Below, in pieces: positions 5,243 through 48,019 of a stretch of DNA of 64,000 nt. This DNA is from Acinetobacter pollinis (lineage in GTDB: Bacteria > Pseudomonadota > Gammaproteobacteria > Pseudomonadales > Moraxellaceae): the NCBI RefSeq assembly GCF_015627175.1, contig NZ_VTDQ01000004.1:1-64000 (forward strand). Reading direction: 5' to 3'. A program made the position numbers and the translations under genes. The notes under the pieces were generated by a model. It had not been told where the DNA came from. It searched no databases and saw nothing but the letters and a program-made list of their open reading frames with translations. How positions within the stretch are numbered: the stretch's first letter is position 1; each line of letters begins with the position of its first letter.

Positions 5243-8062
5243 TTATGGGTTAAGGTACTGGCTCAATTTTTTCTGAGCAGCTTCACGTGTATGTTGAATG
5301 ACCTTTTTAAGCTCATTAAAGCGTAGAAGAGTTTCTTGAATGAAACTTTGATCTGCCCGCCGTTTCTCTTTACGCAAAGTTGAAATAAATTGCTCAAAAT
5401 CTCCAGTAATTTCTTGGAGTTTAGGTGTGCCGACATAGCGCGTAGCCCCATAGAGTCGGTGTAGTACATGCTCTAATTGAGGGAAGTCTTCGAGCTCAAT
5501 GAGTTGTTGCATTTCCTCAACTTCAGCGTCAAAACTTTCTGTAAGCATTTTAAGTAAATCTACAGCCAATTCCTCCTTATTTGCCGCAAGTTTAACACTT
5601 TGTGCCCAGTCCAGAATATTGCTATCCATTGTGGTAGAAAACTCATTGTGTAACGGAGTTTGGTTGTTTTCAAATCGGCTATTTGTCCATGTAGTGAGAA
5701 TTTGTACAAGCTGCTCTATCTGAATTGGCTTGGTTACATAGTCGTTCATACCGACAGTAAGTAAGTTTTGTTTTTCATCTGAAAGTGCATGTGCTGTAAG
5801 TGCAATAATTGGAAACTCTTTACTCTTATTCAAAGTAGATTCTAATGAACGAATTGCACGAGTTGTATCTACTCCAGACATTACAGGCATTTGAATATCC
5901 ATAAAGATTAAATCAAACGGTTGTTGTTTTTGTTCAATATTATTTTGAATCAGTCGGAGAGCTTCTTGTCCGCTCAGTGCTTTGGTGGTTTTTACTTTTA
6001 GCTCTGCCAGTAACGCTTCTAAAACAATAAGATTAGGTAAATGGTCATCTACTGCTAGGACGTGTAAACCTTCACCATTGAAGGTTTTGCTGACATGCTC
6101 CTCTTCTACTTGGATTTGGTTTTTAAGTAGCTGAAGTAGGGCGTGTCTACTCAGAGGTTGATAAAGTGGAGTTGCATGAAACTGACTTAATGTATTGGGT
6201 TCTAGAGCCATTTGATAGCCATAGACGGCTAAATGACCTTGATAACGCATACGAATTTCTTGAAGTAATGTGTGCGTATCACCTGCATGATCGACAATAA
6301 CCCAAGTGTCATCGTGATTGGTGAGTTGATTTAAGCGGTTAAACAAGTCTAACAGAGAGATACTCTCTGTATGTTGGACGTTGTAATTTTCTAAATAATG
6401 TCGAAGAATATTTGCTGTGGCTGCATGGGAAATAAAAGATACAACTTTTACATGACTTAAATTTTCTTTTTGAATGTGTTGCGTACGTTGGTCTAAATCG
6501 AATTGAATGTTAAACCAAAATGTGGAGCCTTTTTCCGTTGGTGTACGCTCCTGATTGTCTTCAAAACCAATATGACCATGCATCATTTGTACAAGCTGTT
6601 TTGAGATTGCAAGCCCTAAGCCTGTACCACCAAATTGACGAGTAATGGATGCATCCACCTGTGAAAAAGAATCAAATAATTTTTTTCGATCTTGTTCACT
6701 TACCCCAATACCACTGTCTTGTACGCTAAAGTAAATTTGACAATGCTGATGGTTTTTATTTTCCAGACGAGTACGGACAATAATTTCACCCTCAGGGGTA
6801 AATTTAATTGCATTTGAAATGAGATTCGTCAAAATTTGTTTAAAGCGTAATGTATCGCCAATGACGTACTGTGGTAGGTCGTGCGCGAAGTAAAATGCCA
6901 TATTAATATTTTTCTGAGCGGCCAAAGGAGACAACATATCCATGACATCAAAGATGGTCTCTTCAAGATTAAACTGTGCTGTTTCAAGCTCAAGTTTGCC
7001 CGCATCAATTTTTGAGAAATCTAAAACATCGTTAATCAATGCAAGTAAATGTGCAGATGACTTTCGTATAGTTTGTAAATATAGGTTCTGATCATTAGTA
7101 AGGTTGTCTTGTCTGAGCATGAGATGGATAAAGCCATCAATACTATTTAAAGGCGTTCTTAATTCATGGCTAATATTGGCAAGAAAAACAGATTTTGATT
7201 GATTGGCTGATATCGCTTGGTCACGTGCTTGTCTATAAGTAATATTTTGGACTTCAAGCGTATCTAACGTTCGACGTAAATCATCTTCAGTTTGTTCAGT
7301 ATGGTCTTTAAGCTCTAAAAAGCTATGGTGCAATCTTTGTAAGGTATTTTCGATATCGCGCTGTAATAATTTTAGTTCACCACTGCTATTGAGTGTAATA
7401 GGCTGATCTAAATTATCTGCACTTAATCGTTGTAATTGCATTCGAATTTCGTAGAGGGGTGCAATCCATCGTCTAGAATAAAAGTTTAAACACATCATGA
7501 GTAAAAGAAGTGTAATAAAACCTGTAATGGCCAATACAGTCAGAATACGATAATGTGCCAATGCTAAAGGTTGGTCATCTAATTCAATGAGCAACCATGT
7601 GCTAATCCCTTTACTATTGGTCATAATTTTACTGCCATAGACCGTATTGTGATTATACGATATAGGGCCAATAAATCGGGCAGAATCGTTCACTGTGGGC
7701 CATGGTAAATATCTACGCTGACCAATGTTGAGTTTAATATGGTTGTCGCTGTCTATAATGGCAACGCGCTGCACATATTGCTCGTTTAAAACGCTTTGTA
7801 AAATATTTTCTGCACGTGGTGTAATATTTGGTGAAGTATCAATTGCTGTTGAAAGTAGTTTGGCCGTATGTTGATAGCGTGATAAGGTCGCAATTGCTGC
7901 ATACTGCTGTTGGCTTTTTGCAGCAACACGGGTTTCGTTAACAACAAGGGTTGTTCCTACAAAAACAAGTACTGAAATTGGAATAAAAATAAATGCGACC
8001 AATTGCCCATAGGCATGGTTTAGCTGTAAGCGTTGTAATAGGTTTTTTCTTAATTGCGCCAT
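5243..8062 (-). CDS. gacS: Hybrid sensor histidine kinase GacS/BarA
   Basis: A 939-residue inner-membrane tripartite kinase. Order: membrane helix about 21-41, periplasmic sensor region 42-170, second helix about 172-195, HAMP 196-250, dimerisation/phosphoacceptor domain with H299 in NISHELRTPL, ATPase domain (N box SNAIKFT, G1 DSGIGV, G2 GGTGLGLAIS), receiver domain with phospho-acceptor D722 in FMDIQMPVMSG and K778, and a C-terminal Hpt domain with H868 in HRLYGATRYVG. Length and order match GacS/BarA, which phosphorylates GacA and controls virulence, motility and aromatic catabolism genes in Acinetobacter. The partner gacA is not in the window. It is divergent from cysM. Confidence 0.9.
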   Translation of the reverse strand: MAQLRKNLLQRLQLNHAYGQLVAFIFIPISVLVFVGTTLVVNETRVAAKSQQQYAAIATLSRYQHTAKLLSTAIDTSPNITPRAENILQSVLNEQYVQRVAIIDSDNHIKLNIGQRRYLPWPTVNDSARFIGPISYNHNTVYGSKIMTNSKGISTWLLIELDDQPLALAHYRILTVLAITGFITLLLLMMCLNFYSRRWIAPLYEIRMQLQRLSADNLDQPITLNSSGELKLLQRDIENTLQRLHHSFLELKDHTEQTEDDLRRTLDTLEVQNITYRQARDQAISANQSKSVFLANISHELRTPLNSIDGFIHLMLRQDNLTNDQNLYLQTIRKSSAHLLALINDVLDFSKIDAGKLELETAQFNLEETIFDVMDMLSPLAAQKNINMAFYFAHDLPQYVIGDTLRFKQILTNLISNAIKFTPEGEIIVRTRLENKNHQHCQIYFSVQDSGIGVSEQDRKKLFDSFSQVDASITRQFGGTGLGLAISKQLVQMMHGHIGFEDNQERTPTEKGSTFWFNIQFDLDQRTQHIQKENLSHVKVVSFISHAATANILRHYLENYNVQHTESISLLDLFNRLNQLTNHDDTWVIVDHAGDTHTLLQEIRMRYQGHLAVYGYQMALEPNTLSQFHATPLYQPLSRHALLQLLKNQIQVEEEHVSKTFNGEGLHVLAVDDHLPNLIVLEALLAELKVKTTKALSGQEALRLIQNNIEQKQQPFDLIFMDIQMPVMSGVDTTRAIRSLESTLNKSKEFPIIALTAHALSDEKQNLLTVGMNDYVTKPIQIEQLVQILTTWTNSRFENNQTPLHNEFSTTMDSNILDWAQSVKLAANKEELAVDLLKMLTESFDAEVEEMQQLIELEDFPQLEHVLHRLYGATRYVGTPKLQEITGDFEQFISTLRKEKRRADQSFIQETLLRFNELKKVIQHTREAAQKKLSQYLNP

Positions 8063-44108: not shown

Positions 44109-44489
44109 ATGACGCATCCATCTTTAGGGCCACATGAAGGCAACGAACTAGAATTAATGCTACAAAATAAAAAAGAGCTCGCATTTTTTTATACAGGTAG
44201 TGAAATACCTGATGCGTTTAATCCATACCTTAAGACTGGGCGATTGCATTGTAAAACGATTAAGTACGATCGGTTTTTGCAAGGTTTAGATGGAGAGATG
44301 TATCAGGTGATTCATTACATTATTTCACAACAACCTGAGTCTAAAAGTGGACTGAGGTTGGCAGCAGTTTTAGCCGAAATTATGCAAAAGGGATTTTGTC
44401 CTGATTTAGAGCGAGAAATCGGTCGTTTACTTGGATATGATCATGAAGATATTGAATACTACATTCAACATTGTCAGAGCAGGAGATAA
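44109..44489 (+). CDS. Hypothetical protein downstream of fpr, 126 aa
   Basis: I do not recognise this family. It is a soluble acidic protein, with a C-terminal helical part (LAAVLAEIMQKGFCPDLEREIGRLLGYDHEDIEYYI) that reads like a small helical bundle. There are three cysteines, none in a cluster motif. It starts 6 bases after fpr, so it is very probably co-transcribed and may be a small partner of the reductase, but that is only inferred from position. Confidence 0.7.
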   Translation: MTHPSLGPHEGNELELMLQNKKELAFFYTGSEIPDAFNPYLKTGRLHCKTIKYDRFLQGLDGEMYQVIHYIISQQPESKSGLRLAAVLAEIMQKGFCPDLEREIGRLLGYDHEDIEYYIQHCQSRR

Positions 44490-44502
44490 AGTCTCCCTTG
44501 TT
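44482..44502. terminator. Weak terminator-like hairpin between convergent hypothetical genes
   Basis: GGAGA (44482-44486) pairs with TCTCC (44492-44496) around TAAAG, followed by CTTGTTTT. The stem is only five pairs and overlaps the stop codon. Confidence 0.35.
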
Positions 44503-44925
44503 TTAATGAACGAACATATCCATAAATGTACGAATTTCTAACAGCGCTGTATCTACGCTTGAGGTCAGCCAAGTCGGTTCAAAAAAGCCACTATAAAATT
44601 CGAGCCGATCTTGTGGAACAACGATGCGTATAGGACATTCTTCATCTACCAGTTTCCAAGGAATAATTGGTACATCCTGATCTATAAATGGTGCAACATC
44701 ACGAATATCTACAATCATAGCTACAATGCAGTCCGGATAAGGCATCACAGAAAATTCTTCTGTACGACGTCGAATGTACTCTAAATCTTGCCATTTTAGC
44801 TGATAAGTTTCCTTATGAAATTTAATCACACCAATTAAATGTTGATCACGTGTGTAATGCAGATAACACTCATGAGTGACATCAGTCGTTAAATCAAGGG
44901 AAACAGCTTGTAGCTTGTATGACAT
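44503..44925 (-). CDS. Hypothetical protein, 140 aa
   Basis: Unrecognised. It alternates strands and helices (QLKWQDLEYIRRRTEEF, PYPDCIVAMIVDIRDVAPF, ECPIRIVVPQDRLEF), ending in helix ALLEIRTFMDMFVH. This is the pattern of a small alpha/beta sandwich and resembles STAS-like domains in general layout, but I see no diagnostic residue. No signal peptide. Convergent with the fpr-linked gene. Confidence 0.65.
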   Translation of the reverse strand: MSYKLQAVSLDLTTDVTHECYLHYTRDQHLIGVIKFHKETYQLKWQDLEYIRRRTEEFSVMPYPDCIVAMIVDIRDVAPFIDQDVPIIPWKLVDEECPIRIVVPQDRLEFYSGFFEPTWLTSSVDTALLEIRTFMDMFVH

Positions 44926-45213
44926 ATAAAATGATCAGATAAAAGTGAGCGCGTAATTATAACGTATTTCGTCCGAATGCTAAAACATTATGGAATCATC
45001 TTTGATCCCAAAGAAGCATTAATATAGTTATATGTTTAATGTCATCAAATGCTAATTTTAATTATTCCGATAGAATAAAAAATTACTCTCCAACTAAGTG
45101 ATATGTAATATTCATTTAATATTTTTGAAAAAAATCACATTTTATATTAAATTTGTGTCTTAATTTTGATTATTTATTGTATAATTTACTTTTTATTTAA
45201 ATAACTTTTTCTA
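44926..45213. other. AT-rich gap before the VgrG fragment
   Basis: No gene is visible. A perfect TATAAT lies at 45180-45185, about 30 bases before the fragment ORF, without a good -35 at 17 bases. The gap is strongly AT-rich. Confidence 0.4.
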
Positions 45214-45465
45214 ATGATCAGTGATGTTTTTTCTCTTTTAGAAAGTTTGGGGTTTGGATATCAAACACGAGCGATTCACGCTCAATTCTCAAGTCTGCTA
45301 CTTAATCCACAACTTTTTATACAACGCATCGATGGCCACCATGAAGTGAATAAAGGCCTGAGTTGTGAACTCATTTTAATTGATTTGACTCTAGATAAAA
45401 AACCTAATCGAGAAACTGCAGACCATCAGATTCAAGAACAATATATGTTACGTTGGTCATTCTAA
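45214..45465 (+). pseudogene. N-terminal remnant of a type VI secretion tip protein VgrG
   Basis: The 83-residue ORF starts like an Acinetobacter VgrG: LESLGFGYQTRAIHAQFSS, then QLFIQRIDGHHEVNKGLSCE. After about residue 57 the match stops and the remaining sequence (ETADHQIQEQYMLRWSF) is not VgrG that I recognise. VgrG proteins are usually 600-1000 residues, so this is a broken copy, probably cut by deletion near 45390. No other T6SS gene is present. I recall the family from memory; no alignment was run. Confidence 0.7.
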
Positions 45466-45500
45466 ACCATCCGTTATGATGAAAGAATACTATTTCTAAC

Positions 45501-45743
45501 TCAGATAAAATGACCCTTGATGAATTGGAACAAGCATTTAAGAAAAATCGTATAGCCACCTTTCACAAAAATGAGGTTCTTTTTTGTCTTCTCAATGAGT
45601 TGTTGTAATTGTTGTTTTTGTTCAGTAGAGAGACTGGTCTTTGTGGTAGATACTCCCGCTGTATCTCTAGTCGTTCCAGATTGTACACAACCACTTAAGG
45701 CTATGCTCGAGAGTAAGAGAAGAGCGAGTTTTTTTTGAATCAT
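45501..45743 (-). pseudogene. Truncated lipoprotein, N-terminal remnant of a SUMF1/EgtB-type protein
   Basis: It opens with a lipoprotein signal: MIQKK, hydrophobic LALLLLSSIA and lipobox LSGC (Cys 19). A Ser/Thr/Gln linker follows, then LIEKTKKNLIFVKGG, which resembles the start of formylglycine-generating-enzyme (SUMF1/EgtB/PvdO) domains where FVKGG is followed by a MGD-like motif. Here that is replaced by YTIFLKCLFQFIKGHFI and a stop, so the catalytic domain is missing. Such lipoproteins are often encoded beside vgrG in Acinetobacter. It may still be made as an 80-residue lipoprotein. Confidence 0.6.
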
Positions 45744-46456
45744 GGTCTAAAAAGTCGATGCACTAAAAGAGTCATGTATTAAATTTTAATTCAAATAAGA
45801 TAATTTTTTCACTTAATTTTAAATAATTAATATTTAGTTTGAACATAATATGAAGCCTATATATAGCATCGGAAGTAGGGATATCTCTCACTAGATTTTT
45901 TCAGAGTAGATATTTCTATAATAAGCCAATATTTAATAAGATAATTTTTTTAATACATATCGAAAATCGTTAGAATCGTACCTATAACTTGAATCTCGTT
46001 ATGTTAAAAGCCTATCTAAAAATAAGGGTAATTTTCTATAAAAAAGAGAAATTTGATATCTAAATTGGTTTTTTGGTATGTGTGACCTAAATGTTATAAA
46101 ACAAATATAGTCTAGCTCTATCTATTTAAAAAGTTTTTTTATACTTATTGTTATCAGTTTTTTGATTATGATTAGATATCTGTATACTTATAAGCAAGTC
46201 ATAACGTTAAGGCAGGTTATATCTATAATAAAGTACGGATGATATGACCTTATAATACGTATAAAAGCAAAATAGTTGGATAGACACATATTTTTATTGT
46301 GACTCATATCTCAATTTATTAAAGAAATGATATTGTTTTTATAGTGTTACGGTTATAAGCTAATACGAAGAACGAATGCTAAAGAAATAATGCACTTTAT
46401 TATTGATGTAAAGATGCTTATCTAAATGTGTAATAAAAACAAGAGGGTATAATAAG
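45744..46456. other. 713-base AT-rich region with a 16-base direct repeat
   Basis: No gene, tRNA or good terminator is visible. AATAAGATAATTTTTT occurs twice, at 45794-45809 and 45935-45950. Two short copies of TCTATAATAA lie near 45915 and 46222. The sequence is very AT-rich, so such repeats may be chance. The CmpX-like gene at its end has AGAGGG as a ribosome-binding site. Confidence 0.4.
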
Positions 46457-48019
46457 ATGGATAACTATCTAAAGGGCATGCAAGGAGGATTTGACTTCCA
46501 TTACTATTGGAGTCAGTTCCAACCAATATTAGGCGCAATCATAATTTTTATTATTGGTTGGATATTGGCACTTGTTATTGCTGCTGGCGTAAAAAAAGCA
46601 CTAAACGCAATTGATACAAATAAACGTTTGTCTACTGCAACGGGTCAAACACCTGAGTCAGATTATGAAGGGCTCATTTCAAAATTTGTTTTTTGGTTTG
46701 TCCTAATTATTGCAGTTGTTGCCTCATTTAATGTTCTAAATATCAATAGTGTAAGTGGTCCGTTTAGTGCCATGGTTACACAAGTATTGGTGTTTATTCC
46801 AAATCTCATTTCAGCAGCCGTTATTGGCGTGATCGGTTGGGTTGTTGCGCGTTTAGCAAGAGCAGGGTTAACAAACTTACTGGCAAGAACTGAACTTGAT
46901 GAAAAATTGAGTGGAGATGTTGGTGTACAGCCAGTTAGCCAAAATATTGCAGATATTGTTTATTGGTTAATTTTATTACTATTTTTGCCAATTATTTTAT
47001 CTATTTTAGGCTTAACAGGTTTACTTGTACCTGTACAAAACATGGTAAATGAGGCAGTTGGTTTCTTACCAAATATCTTCATTGCTGGTGTAATTATCTT
47101 TGTTGGTTACATTCTTGCAAAAATCGTACGTGGCATTATTGAAGGTTTAATTAATAGCTTTGGCTTACAAGCACAAGTTGAAAAATTTGGCCTATTTAAA
47201 AATACGGGTATTGCAAAAGTTTTAGGTTCTTTTGTTTCAGCACTAATTATGATCACATCATTAATTATTGCATTCGAAGCTCTAGGAATTCAGGCAATTT
47301 CTGAACCTGCAACAGCAATGCTTAACCAAATCATGTCTGCGATTCCAAATATTATTGCAGCAGGTTTAATTCTTGTTATTGCTTATATTGTATCGCGTTT
47401 TGTTGCGAACCTTGTAAAAGACGTTATTTCTGGTACAGGTGTAGACGATATTCCTGCGAAAGTTGATGTTCAACGTTTCATGGGAACAACAAAAGTTTCA
47501 GGTATTGTTGCATCTTTAATTGTATTTTTCACAATGTTGTTTGCGGTTTCTGAAGCAGCAAACCGTCTAGGATTTGATCAAGTAAGCCACTTAATTTCAA
47601 TGTTTATTGAATTTGGTGCGAATATTTTACTTGGTGCCGTTATTCTGGTTATTGGTTTCTGGCTTGCAAATGTTGTTGCAAACATTGTTCAACGTGGTGA
47701 ATATAAGAGTTCACGTTGGTTAGGCTGCTTAGTTCGTGTGTTAATCATGGGCTTAGTGCTTGCAATGGGCTTACGTGCAATGGGTATTGCAGATTCAATC
47801 GTAAACCTTGCATTTGGTCTAACACTCGGTGCTGTTGCTGTTGCATTTGCACTAGCGTTTGGCTTAGGTGGCCGTCAGCCTGCAGAGCGTCTTCTTACAG
47901 ATCTTATGGATAAAGCAAAATCTGAAGGTTGTGCTTTAGACAAAAAATCTGAAGATACTTCTTCTACACCAAAGTTGAATGAGACAAACCCAACTAACGA
48001 ACGTCCAAATGGCGAATAA
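46457..48019 (+). CDS. CmpX-like membrane protein of the mechanosensitive-channel superfamily
   Basis: A 520-residue inner-membrane protein built of repeated conserved TM-helix units: QPILGAIIIFIIGWILAL, PNLISAAVIGVIGWVVARLA, PNIFIAGVIIFVGYILAKIV, PNIIAAGLILVIAYIVSRFV and NILLGAVILVIGFWLANVV, each about 90 residues apart. The end GLTLGAVAVAFALAFGLGGR is like the pore-helix/Gly-rich end of MscS-type proteins. This pattern is that of Pseudomonas CmpX, linked to membrane stress and cell-envelope signalling. The C-terminal 40 residues are hydrophilic and Ser/Thr/Asn-rich. Confidence 0.85.
   Translation: MDNYLKGMQGGFDFHYYWSQFQPILGAIIIFIIGWILALVIAAGVKKALNAIDTNKRLSTATGQTPESDYEGLISKFVFWFVLIIAVVASFNVLNINSVSGPFSAMVTQVLVFIPNLISAAVIGVIGWVVARLARAGLTNLLARTELDEKLSGDVGVQPVSQNIADIVYWLILLLFLPIILSILGLTGLLVPVQNMVNEAVGFLPNIFIAGVIIFVGYILAKIVRGIIEGLINSFGLQAQVEKFGLFKNTGIAKVLGSFVSALIMITSLIIAFEALGIQAISEPATAMLNQIMSAIPNIIAAGLILVIAYIVSRFVANLVKDVISGTGVDDIPAKVDVQRFMGTTKVSGIVASLIVFFTMLFAVSEAANRLGFDQVSHLISMFIEFGANILLGAVILVIGFWLANVVANIVQRGEYKSSRWLGCLVRVLIMGLVLAMGLRAMGIADSIVNLAFGLTLGAVAVAFALAFGLGGRQPAERLLTDLMDKAKSEGCALDKKSEDTSSTPKLNETNPTNERPNGE

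Follow-up and report, generated by a model that had tools for sequence, protein, structure and literature searches.

A putative remnant of a type VI secretion gene cluster in Acinetobacter pollinis, composed of pieces from three genes

Three gene pieces and their junctions

The window analysed here is a stretch of 64,000 nucleotides from Acinetobacter pollinis (contig NZ_VTDQ01000004.1, positions 1 to 64,000). It contains two short open reading frames facing each other, one of 83 residues on the plus strand (45214-45465) and one of 80 residues on the minus strand (45501-45743), at the positions given in a first-pass annotation. When 45000-45860 was compared by blastn with other parts of its own genome and with stretches from relatives, we observed that the region fell into three adjacent pieces, each with its match in a different gene from the vgrG loci of Acinetobacter (Table 1). 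Judged from these matches, 45102-45743 appears to be a remnant of a type VI secretion (T6SS) gene cluster in which pieces from three genes have been joined. The first-pass annotation had described two N-terminal fragments; this was right for the vgrG and minus-strand pieces, but the real count is three and the middle piece is not N-terminal. The E-values of the ORF matches are so low that chance matches can be ruled out. Each ORF matched its proposed parent, and in the genomes searched neither turned up elsewhere as a small intact gene.

Table 1. Features of the locus, in positions of the window
Feature	Position	Strand	Basis
Lineage-specific insert, approximate edges	44970..46129		44400-46600 versus the A. 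nectaris region, blastn
vgrG upstream region, most like the C89 copy	45102..45213	+	blastn
5' fragment of vgrG, codons 1-54	45214..45376	+	E 6.4e-31 to C66 VgrG; 151/155 bases against each of C89, C48 and C66
Junction 1, vgrG/lipo29, ATTT common to both	45373..45376		side-by-side sequences
lipo29 fragment, about codons 198-257 of 292, contains TLDELEQAFKKN	45373..45553	+	blastn and codon positions
Junction 2, lipo29/antisense of FGE lipoprotein gene, TAT of about 3 bp, uncertain	45551..45555		side-by-side sequences
5' fragment of FGE/SUMF1-type lipoprotein gene, codons 1-63 (signal peptide, lipobox, linker)	45555..45743	-	homology to relatives

The first piece (45102-45376) was 93-94% identical at the nucleotide level to vgrG copies of the same genome, over 271 bp on contig C89 (94%), 234 bp on C48 (94%) and 221 bp on C66, and the C89 and C48 alignments continue into vgrG. 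At the protein level, residues 1-58 of the 83-aa ORF were homologous to the N terminus of VgrG, with 90% identity to the intact VgrG on C66, while residues 54-83 matched lipo29 instead (C29, 83%, E 4.7e-10; C49, 73%, E 6.4e-9). The VgrG identity proposed at first was correct; the VgrG part stops at about residue 54 (45375), where the first-pass annotation gave ~57 residues. Only 54 codons are left in the window, as against the 944 aa of the C66 protein; the fragment gave no Pfam match, Phage_GPD (PF05954) included, and lacks the full spike length of ~900 residues. The 60 bp before the vgrG start were identical to C89 (60/60) and matched C48 at 55/60 and C66 at 49 of 62 aligned positions; in this same stretch the copies of C66 and of the ESL0695 plasmid each have 79% identity to the window.

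Further vgrG copies of the genome lie on C66, C53, C29 and C7, those on C29 and C7 ending at contig ends, and a T6SS sheath gene (VipA) is also present. For vgrG pieces in the genome, the search with the 83-aa ORF gives the better list, as nine of nine candidates were scored in it (the DNA search scored 8/60). In other Acinetobacter, VgrG-type matches for the 83-aa ORF were found in seven plasmid-collection records, three of them annotated as VgrG under the match. On C7 (4356-6682) a vgrG seems to fall into two ORFs of 447 and 296 aa, followed by an intact LysM/M23 peptidase gene, and this vgrG is possibly a pseudogene. A weak VgrG N-terminal match with two stops on C60 (1501-1650; residues 11-58, 38%, E 0.016) is perhaps another vgrG remnant of the same genome. 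The C66-like vgrG on the plasmid of Acinetobacter sp. ESL0695 (NZ_CP113936.1, 5962-8420) reads as three ORFs (115, 266 and 419 aa), and may also be broken.

The middle piece derives from a gene that we have named lipo29, after the 292-aa lipoprotein gene on C29. It aligned with C29:3939-4118 at 89% nucleotide identity over 180 bp, and with C49 at 86% over 171 bp. The suspicion of a third fragment at TLDELEQAFKKN was well placed, as this stretch lies within the lipo29 homology. Relative to both the C29 and C49 copies, the piece carries a premature stop (45463-45465) and a one-base frameshift, and it is because of this frameshift that TLDELEQAFKKN had appeared as a separate open stretch. The gene order on C29 is vgrG, a DUF2515 protein gene (E 2e-41) and lipo29. 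We found lipo29 matches in 19/149 Acinetobacter genomes at E<=1e-8, the window's own genome among them. A DUF2515 match lay upstream of lipo29 at three of six loci and was absent at the other three (tblastn, flanks up to 1.5 kb); the three were the genome's own copy, one other full-length match and one match over the last 35 residues only. Since a DUF2515 match precedes just half of these loci, lipo29 is not tied to DUF2515 alone.

The minus-strand piece carries the motif LSGC, which we take to be the lipobox. Residues 1-64 of the 80-aa ORF matched seven genes in the genomes G020, G021 and G016 (58-64% identity, E 3e-20 to 7e-17), all open frames of 325-349 codons; two additional matches were weak. 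Against four tandem copies in G020, the fragment showed 63-64% amino acid identity; in blastn its nucleotide identity to relatives reached 84% over 93 bp. The FGE-sulfatase domain (PF03781) was present in 3/3 relatives scanned (one protein per genome), starting at residue 56, 56 and 67, and was unmatched in the 80-aa ORF. The ORF thus has a lipoprotein signal and linker homologous to those of FGE lipoproteins and is cut at the start of the FGE domain, which bears out the first reading of a SUMF1-type lipoprotein truncated at that point. Past the fragment, the ORF continues to 45501 through lipo29 antisense. No second copy of the FGE lipoprotein was found in the genome (fragment query, E<=0.01; full-protein query, E<=1e-30), and the 80-aa ORF had zero matches in the plasmid collection.

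A Pfam scan at E<=10 found neither a VgrG nor an FGE model in the two ORFs. The 83-aa ORF had zero matches and the 80-aa ORF had just an irrelevant weak one to EIF3E_C (E 0.019). This silence is explained by their shortness, and Pfam by itself would miss the parentage of both.

Microhomology had been suggested as something to look for at the breakpoints. At junction 1, identity between the two parents is limited to the four bases of ATTT, with none further on either side; vgrG and lipo29 are both in phase 0 there, and the join is in frame. At junction 2, the C49 lipo29 and the FGE genes have TAT at most in common, and one codon of the FGE relatives is seemingly missing from the window. Because of this small overlap and the apparently absent codon, the exact position of junction 2 is uncertain. 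The breakpoints predicted near 45390 and 45555 were close to those measured, the first lying ~15 bases further left than predicted. The fragment identities and the junctions together support the earlier idea of a T6SS vgrG locus broken by deletion at two points.

The insertion site and intact loci in other genomes

The closest named genome that we found was that of Acinetobacter nectaris CIP 110549, with 93-94% identity at both proteins flanking the insert. Homology to this genome stops near 44969 and restarts near 46130, and ~123 unrelated bp stand there instead. The flanking genes, for a 140-aa protein and a 520-aa membrane-channel-like protein, are both conserved; the distance between them is ~1,530 bp in the window versus ~500 bp in A. 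nectaris. The insert edges had no 9-bp word in direct or inverted repeat. The 380 bp that separate the FGE fragment from the flank also present in A. nectaris (45750-46129) are AT-rich (23% GC), and a comparison of 45740-46140 with seven genomes gave nothing convincing, the best other match being 45 bases at E 1.4e-4.

We also evaluated the site in other genomes. With the channel-like protein, 67 named loci were collected (63 Acinetobacter or other Moraxellaceae, 4 not), and both flanking genes were detected in 58 of them, with gaps of up to 1 kb in 51, of 1-2 kb in two and larger ones in five. Genes for VgrG, the FGE lipoprotein, lipo29 and the DUF2515 protein were found at the site in 0/58 named loci (tblastn, E<=1e-5), and the same protein families in 0/14 regions of further genomes (E<=1e-4; the species overlap with the named set). 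The hope of aligning a strain that keeps a full vgrG here was not borne out, as no compared genome has one, nor does the closest relative that we found carry any vgrG at the site. We considered that the long gaps of some relatives (~3.4-5.6 kb) might hide a vgrG, and rejected this, since none was present in the 14 regions or in the five named loci with gaps >2 kb. The genes in the five long gaps with inspected ORFs look by eye like genes of ethanolamine utilisation, which we presume them to be.

As the module genes are absent from all these comparison sites, the simplest history is one of gain on this lineage and later decay, and the module was probably gained here and subsequently deleted. 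An ancestral module lost from the site across the rest of the genus is very unlikely: a survey of A. baumannii does put truncated vgrG and lost effector genes on record (PMC6833914), but this history would need many independent complete losses, with no protein-level match left in any of the 58 named loci and 14 regions, two sets that overlap in species.

When the full FGE lipoprotein was used as query, 20/149 Acinetobacter genomes matched at E<=1e-30, and the window's genome did not. Nineteen of these 20 genomes supplied the 20 regions that we examined (two came from G061; G104, with two pieces on different contigs, was omitted). VgrG was present in 15 of the 20 regions, and one of the other five is a contig of only 4.3 kb. 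In all 15 regions having both, the FGE gene was on the strand opposite to vgrG, and sat past a vgrG-linked protein related (25-100% identity) to the 969-aa one of G020. Neither this 969-aa protein nor its 997-aa relative had a Pfam match at E<=0.01, and their position suggests that they are effectors. The window keeps the opposite orientation; the large protein gene is absent, and the type of vgrG differs, as the protein of the window's piece is ~90% identical to the C66 VgrG, in comparison to 43-65% for the VgrGs adjoining FGE genes. The lipo29 and FGE lipoprotein families occurred together in 6/149 genomes, and within a few kb of each other in G061 only, with weak identity (25-37%) and a different arrangement. 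An intact locus with lipo29 adjoining the FGE lipoprotein as in the window was found in none of the 149 genomes.

Other arrangements were seen among the FGE genes. In G020 (contig C3, 10763-15324), four tandem FGE lipoprotein genes follow a single vgrG and a single gene for a 969-aa protein, the other three being 80-85% identical to the query copy. The FGE genes of G016 (L096) and G048 (L086) had no VgrG match within 16 kb, and broken FGE copies were seen in G119 (L095, truncated, 5656-5963) and G106; this suggests that the FGE genes of G016, G048 and G119 are orphan or decaying immunity genes.

Decay and residual function

A decayed T6SS effector-immunity locus is, with high confidence, the best explanation of 45102-45743. 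A vgrG-led module would have arrived on this lineage between the 140-aa protein gene and the membrane-channel-like gene. Its lipo29-type lipoprotein gene would have shared the vgrG strand, and its FGE-type lipoprotein gene would have faced vgrG from the other strand. Illegitimate deletion or rearrangement would later have made two joins, one in frame between codon 54 of vgrG and about codon 198 of lipo29, the other between about codon 257 of lipo29 and the antisense of codon 63 of the FGE gene. Lost in this way would be most of the spike gene, any effector, and the mature domain of each lipoprotein. What we observed directly are the identities, junctions and orientation of the pieces, the premature stop and the frameshift, and the absence of these genes at the site in A. 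nectaris CIP 110549; we infer the order of events, the gain, the loss of function and the immunity roles of the two lipoproteins.

Both lipoprotein genes are truncated, and the locus does not retain an intact immunity ORF without its cognate effector, as an orphan immunity gene would be. A working protein is probably not to be expected from any of the three pieces. The most that the reading frames could yield is a chimera of 83 aa and a lipoprotein stub of 80 aa, and most likely no T6SS function remains in 45102-45743.

We further estimated the substitution pattern of the fragments. The vgrG piece showed 2.5 nonsynonymous and 1.5 synonymous changes against C66, and the same against C89, which are tiny counts. 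Over 51 codons, C66 and C89 themselves differ by three synonymous changes and no nonsynonymous one, a contrast that leans towards decay of the window's piece. The ESL0695 plasmid copy had 0 nonsynonymous changes relative to C66 over 54 codons, a weak control, as this gene seems split further on. For the FGE fragment, dN/dS was 0.15-0.21 in nine of ten comparisons with five genomes and the tenth was saturated, dS being >1.2 in all ten; eleven chosen pairs of intact FGE genes gave 0.15-0.36. No excess of nonsynonymous change was therefore seen in the fragment, at this dS >1.2 throughout. The low dN/dS indicates that the fragment was constrained for most of its past, and that its truncation is either recent or not measurable.

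The low dN/dS of the signal and linker (with dS near saturation) would also agree with both short ORFs being functional, the VgrG-lipo29 chimera and the small lipoprotein having been recruited to another task, for instance regulation or decoy immunity. The in-frame fusion and the intact 60 bp of the vgrG upstream region fit this as well. However, one join in three would be in frame by expectation, the middle piece has its premature stop and frameshift, neither ORF is matched by the VgrG and FGE Pfam models, and none of the 58 named loci with both flanking genes carries module genes. We consider such a function highly improbable. That the composite is an assembly chimera of unrelated pieces, vgrG being repeated in the genome and having troubled the assembler (C48 and C89 both end within vgrG at the identical base), is just as improbable, since the window pieces differ from all other copies found in the genome (93-94% and 86-89% identity; the FGE piece unmatched) and the joins are internal to a 163-kb contig, away from its ends.

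Relation to known systems and a possible prophage source

The decayed locus is a further case of known processes, as FGE-like immunity proteins, truncated vgrG and orphan immunity genes have already been published. Formylglycine-generating-enzyme (FGE)-like T6SS immunity proteins are reportedly an established family. Like them, the parent of the window fragment is a lipoprotein with an FGE domain, and its gene faces vgrG and that of a large vgrG-linked protein; unlike them, the window keeps the signal peptide and linker only, the FGE domain being gone. Our literature search found scant work on SUMF1 and type VI immunity, with one match that merely tabulates such an enzyme, and no work linking either DUF2515 or A. 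nectaris with type VI secretion.

In the A. baumannii survey of 2019, truncation is predicted for 25/272 vgrG genes, and in a number of these cases the locus is rearranged and the effector downstream has been lost; effector loci are placed at seven positions only, and orphan non-cognate immunity genes are noted occasionally beside them (PMC6833914). The window resembles the truncated loci of that survey in its vgrG truncation and, presumably, in effector loss (PMC6833914). Unlike those cases, it has three genes cut, none of the compared genomes showed an intact locus at the site, and it belongs to a relative of A. nectaris. For Vibrio cholerae, one study models the sequential displacement of T6SS effector modules with retention of orphan immunity genes, and the two unrelated lipoprotein genes beside one vgrG in the window would fit a displaced module of the kind outlined there (PMC5361080). 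In contrast to the V. cholerae orphans, both lipoprotein genes are broken here, and displacement in the window would be a matter of reconstruction.

The locus opens no new kind of system. It provides one clean example, with its junctions mapped, of the loss of an interbacterial weapon locus, and it extends the known cases of module turnover in A. nectaris-related Acinetobacter by a chromosomal site that is T6SS-free in all compared genomes. It also cautions that the 83- and 80-residue ORFs should not be annotated as genes.

As to the donor, the vgrG piece belongs to the C66/C89 kind, unlike the VgrGs beside FGE genes, and the vgrG and FGE pieces may come from separate modules. If so, junction 2 may be a rearrangement and not a simple deletion. 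On C89, the vgrG start adjoins the prophage genes phrog_14432 and phrog_807 (major tail protein; L047, 1-948), and the lipo29 copy of C49 is ~140 bp from a tape-measure gene (phrog_12706; L044, 1345-6139). Taken together, these neighbourhoods, cut by contig ends, suggest that a vgrG-DUF2515-lipo29 module may sit in a prophage tail operon. The 200-aa phage protein present there matched in 43/149 genomes; among 29 other loci of it that we examined, a tape-measure match lay within the 1.5-kb flank in 13 and a VgrG match in none.

It is conceivable, though we regard it as doubtful, that the remnant records a module displacement. In this reading, a module of this kind, with a vgrG start most like that of the copy apparently in the prophage tail operon, would have landed before an FGE-type immunity gene at a chromosomal site free of T6SS loci in all compared genomes, and the whole would then have been dismantled. 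If true, this would mean that phage-carried T6SS modules seed and fail at new chromosomal sites. A scan of viral contigs (viral_contigs) with lipo29 gave zero confirmed matches. Relatives of lipo29 in two records labelled as phage were rejected as phage evidence, as the neighbouring genes look chromosomal in the one inspected. That record, CAKLQH020000013.1 ('Acinetobacter phage MD-2021a'), has chromosomal-looking genes together with the lipo29 relative, and is probably a mislabelled bacterial contig.
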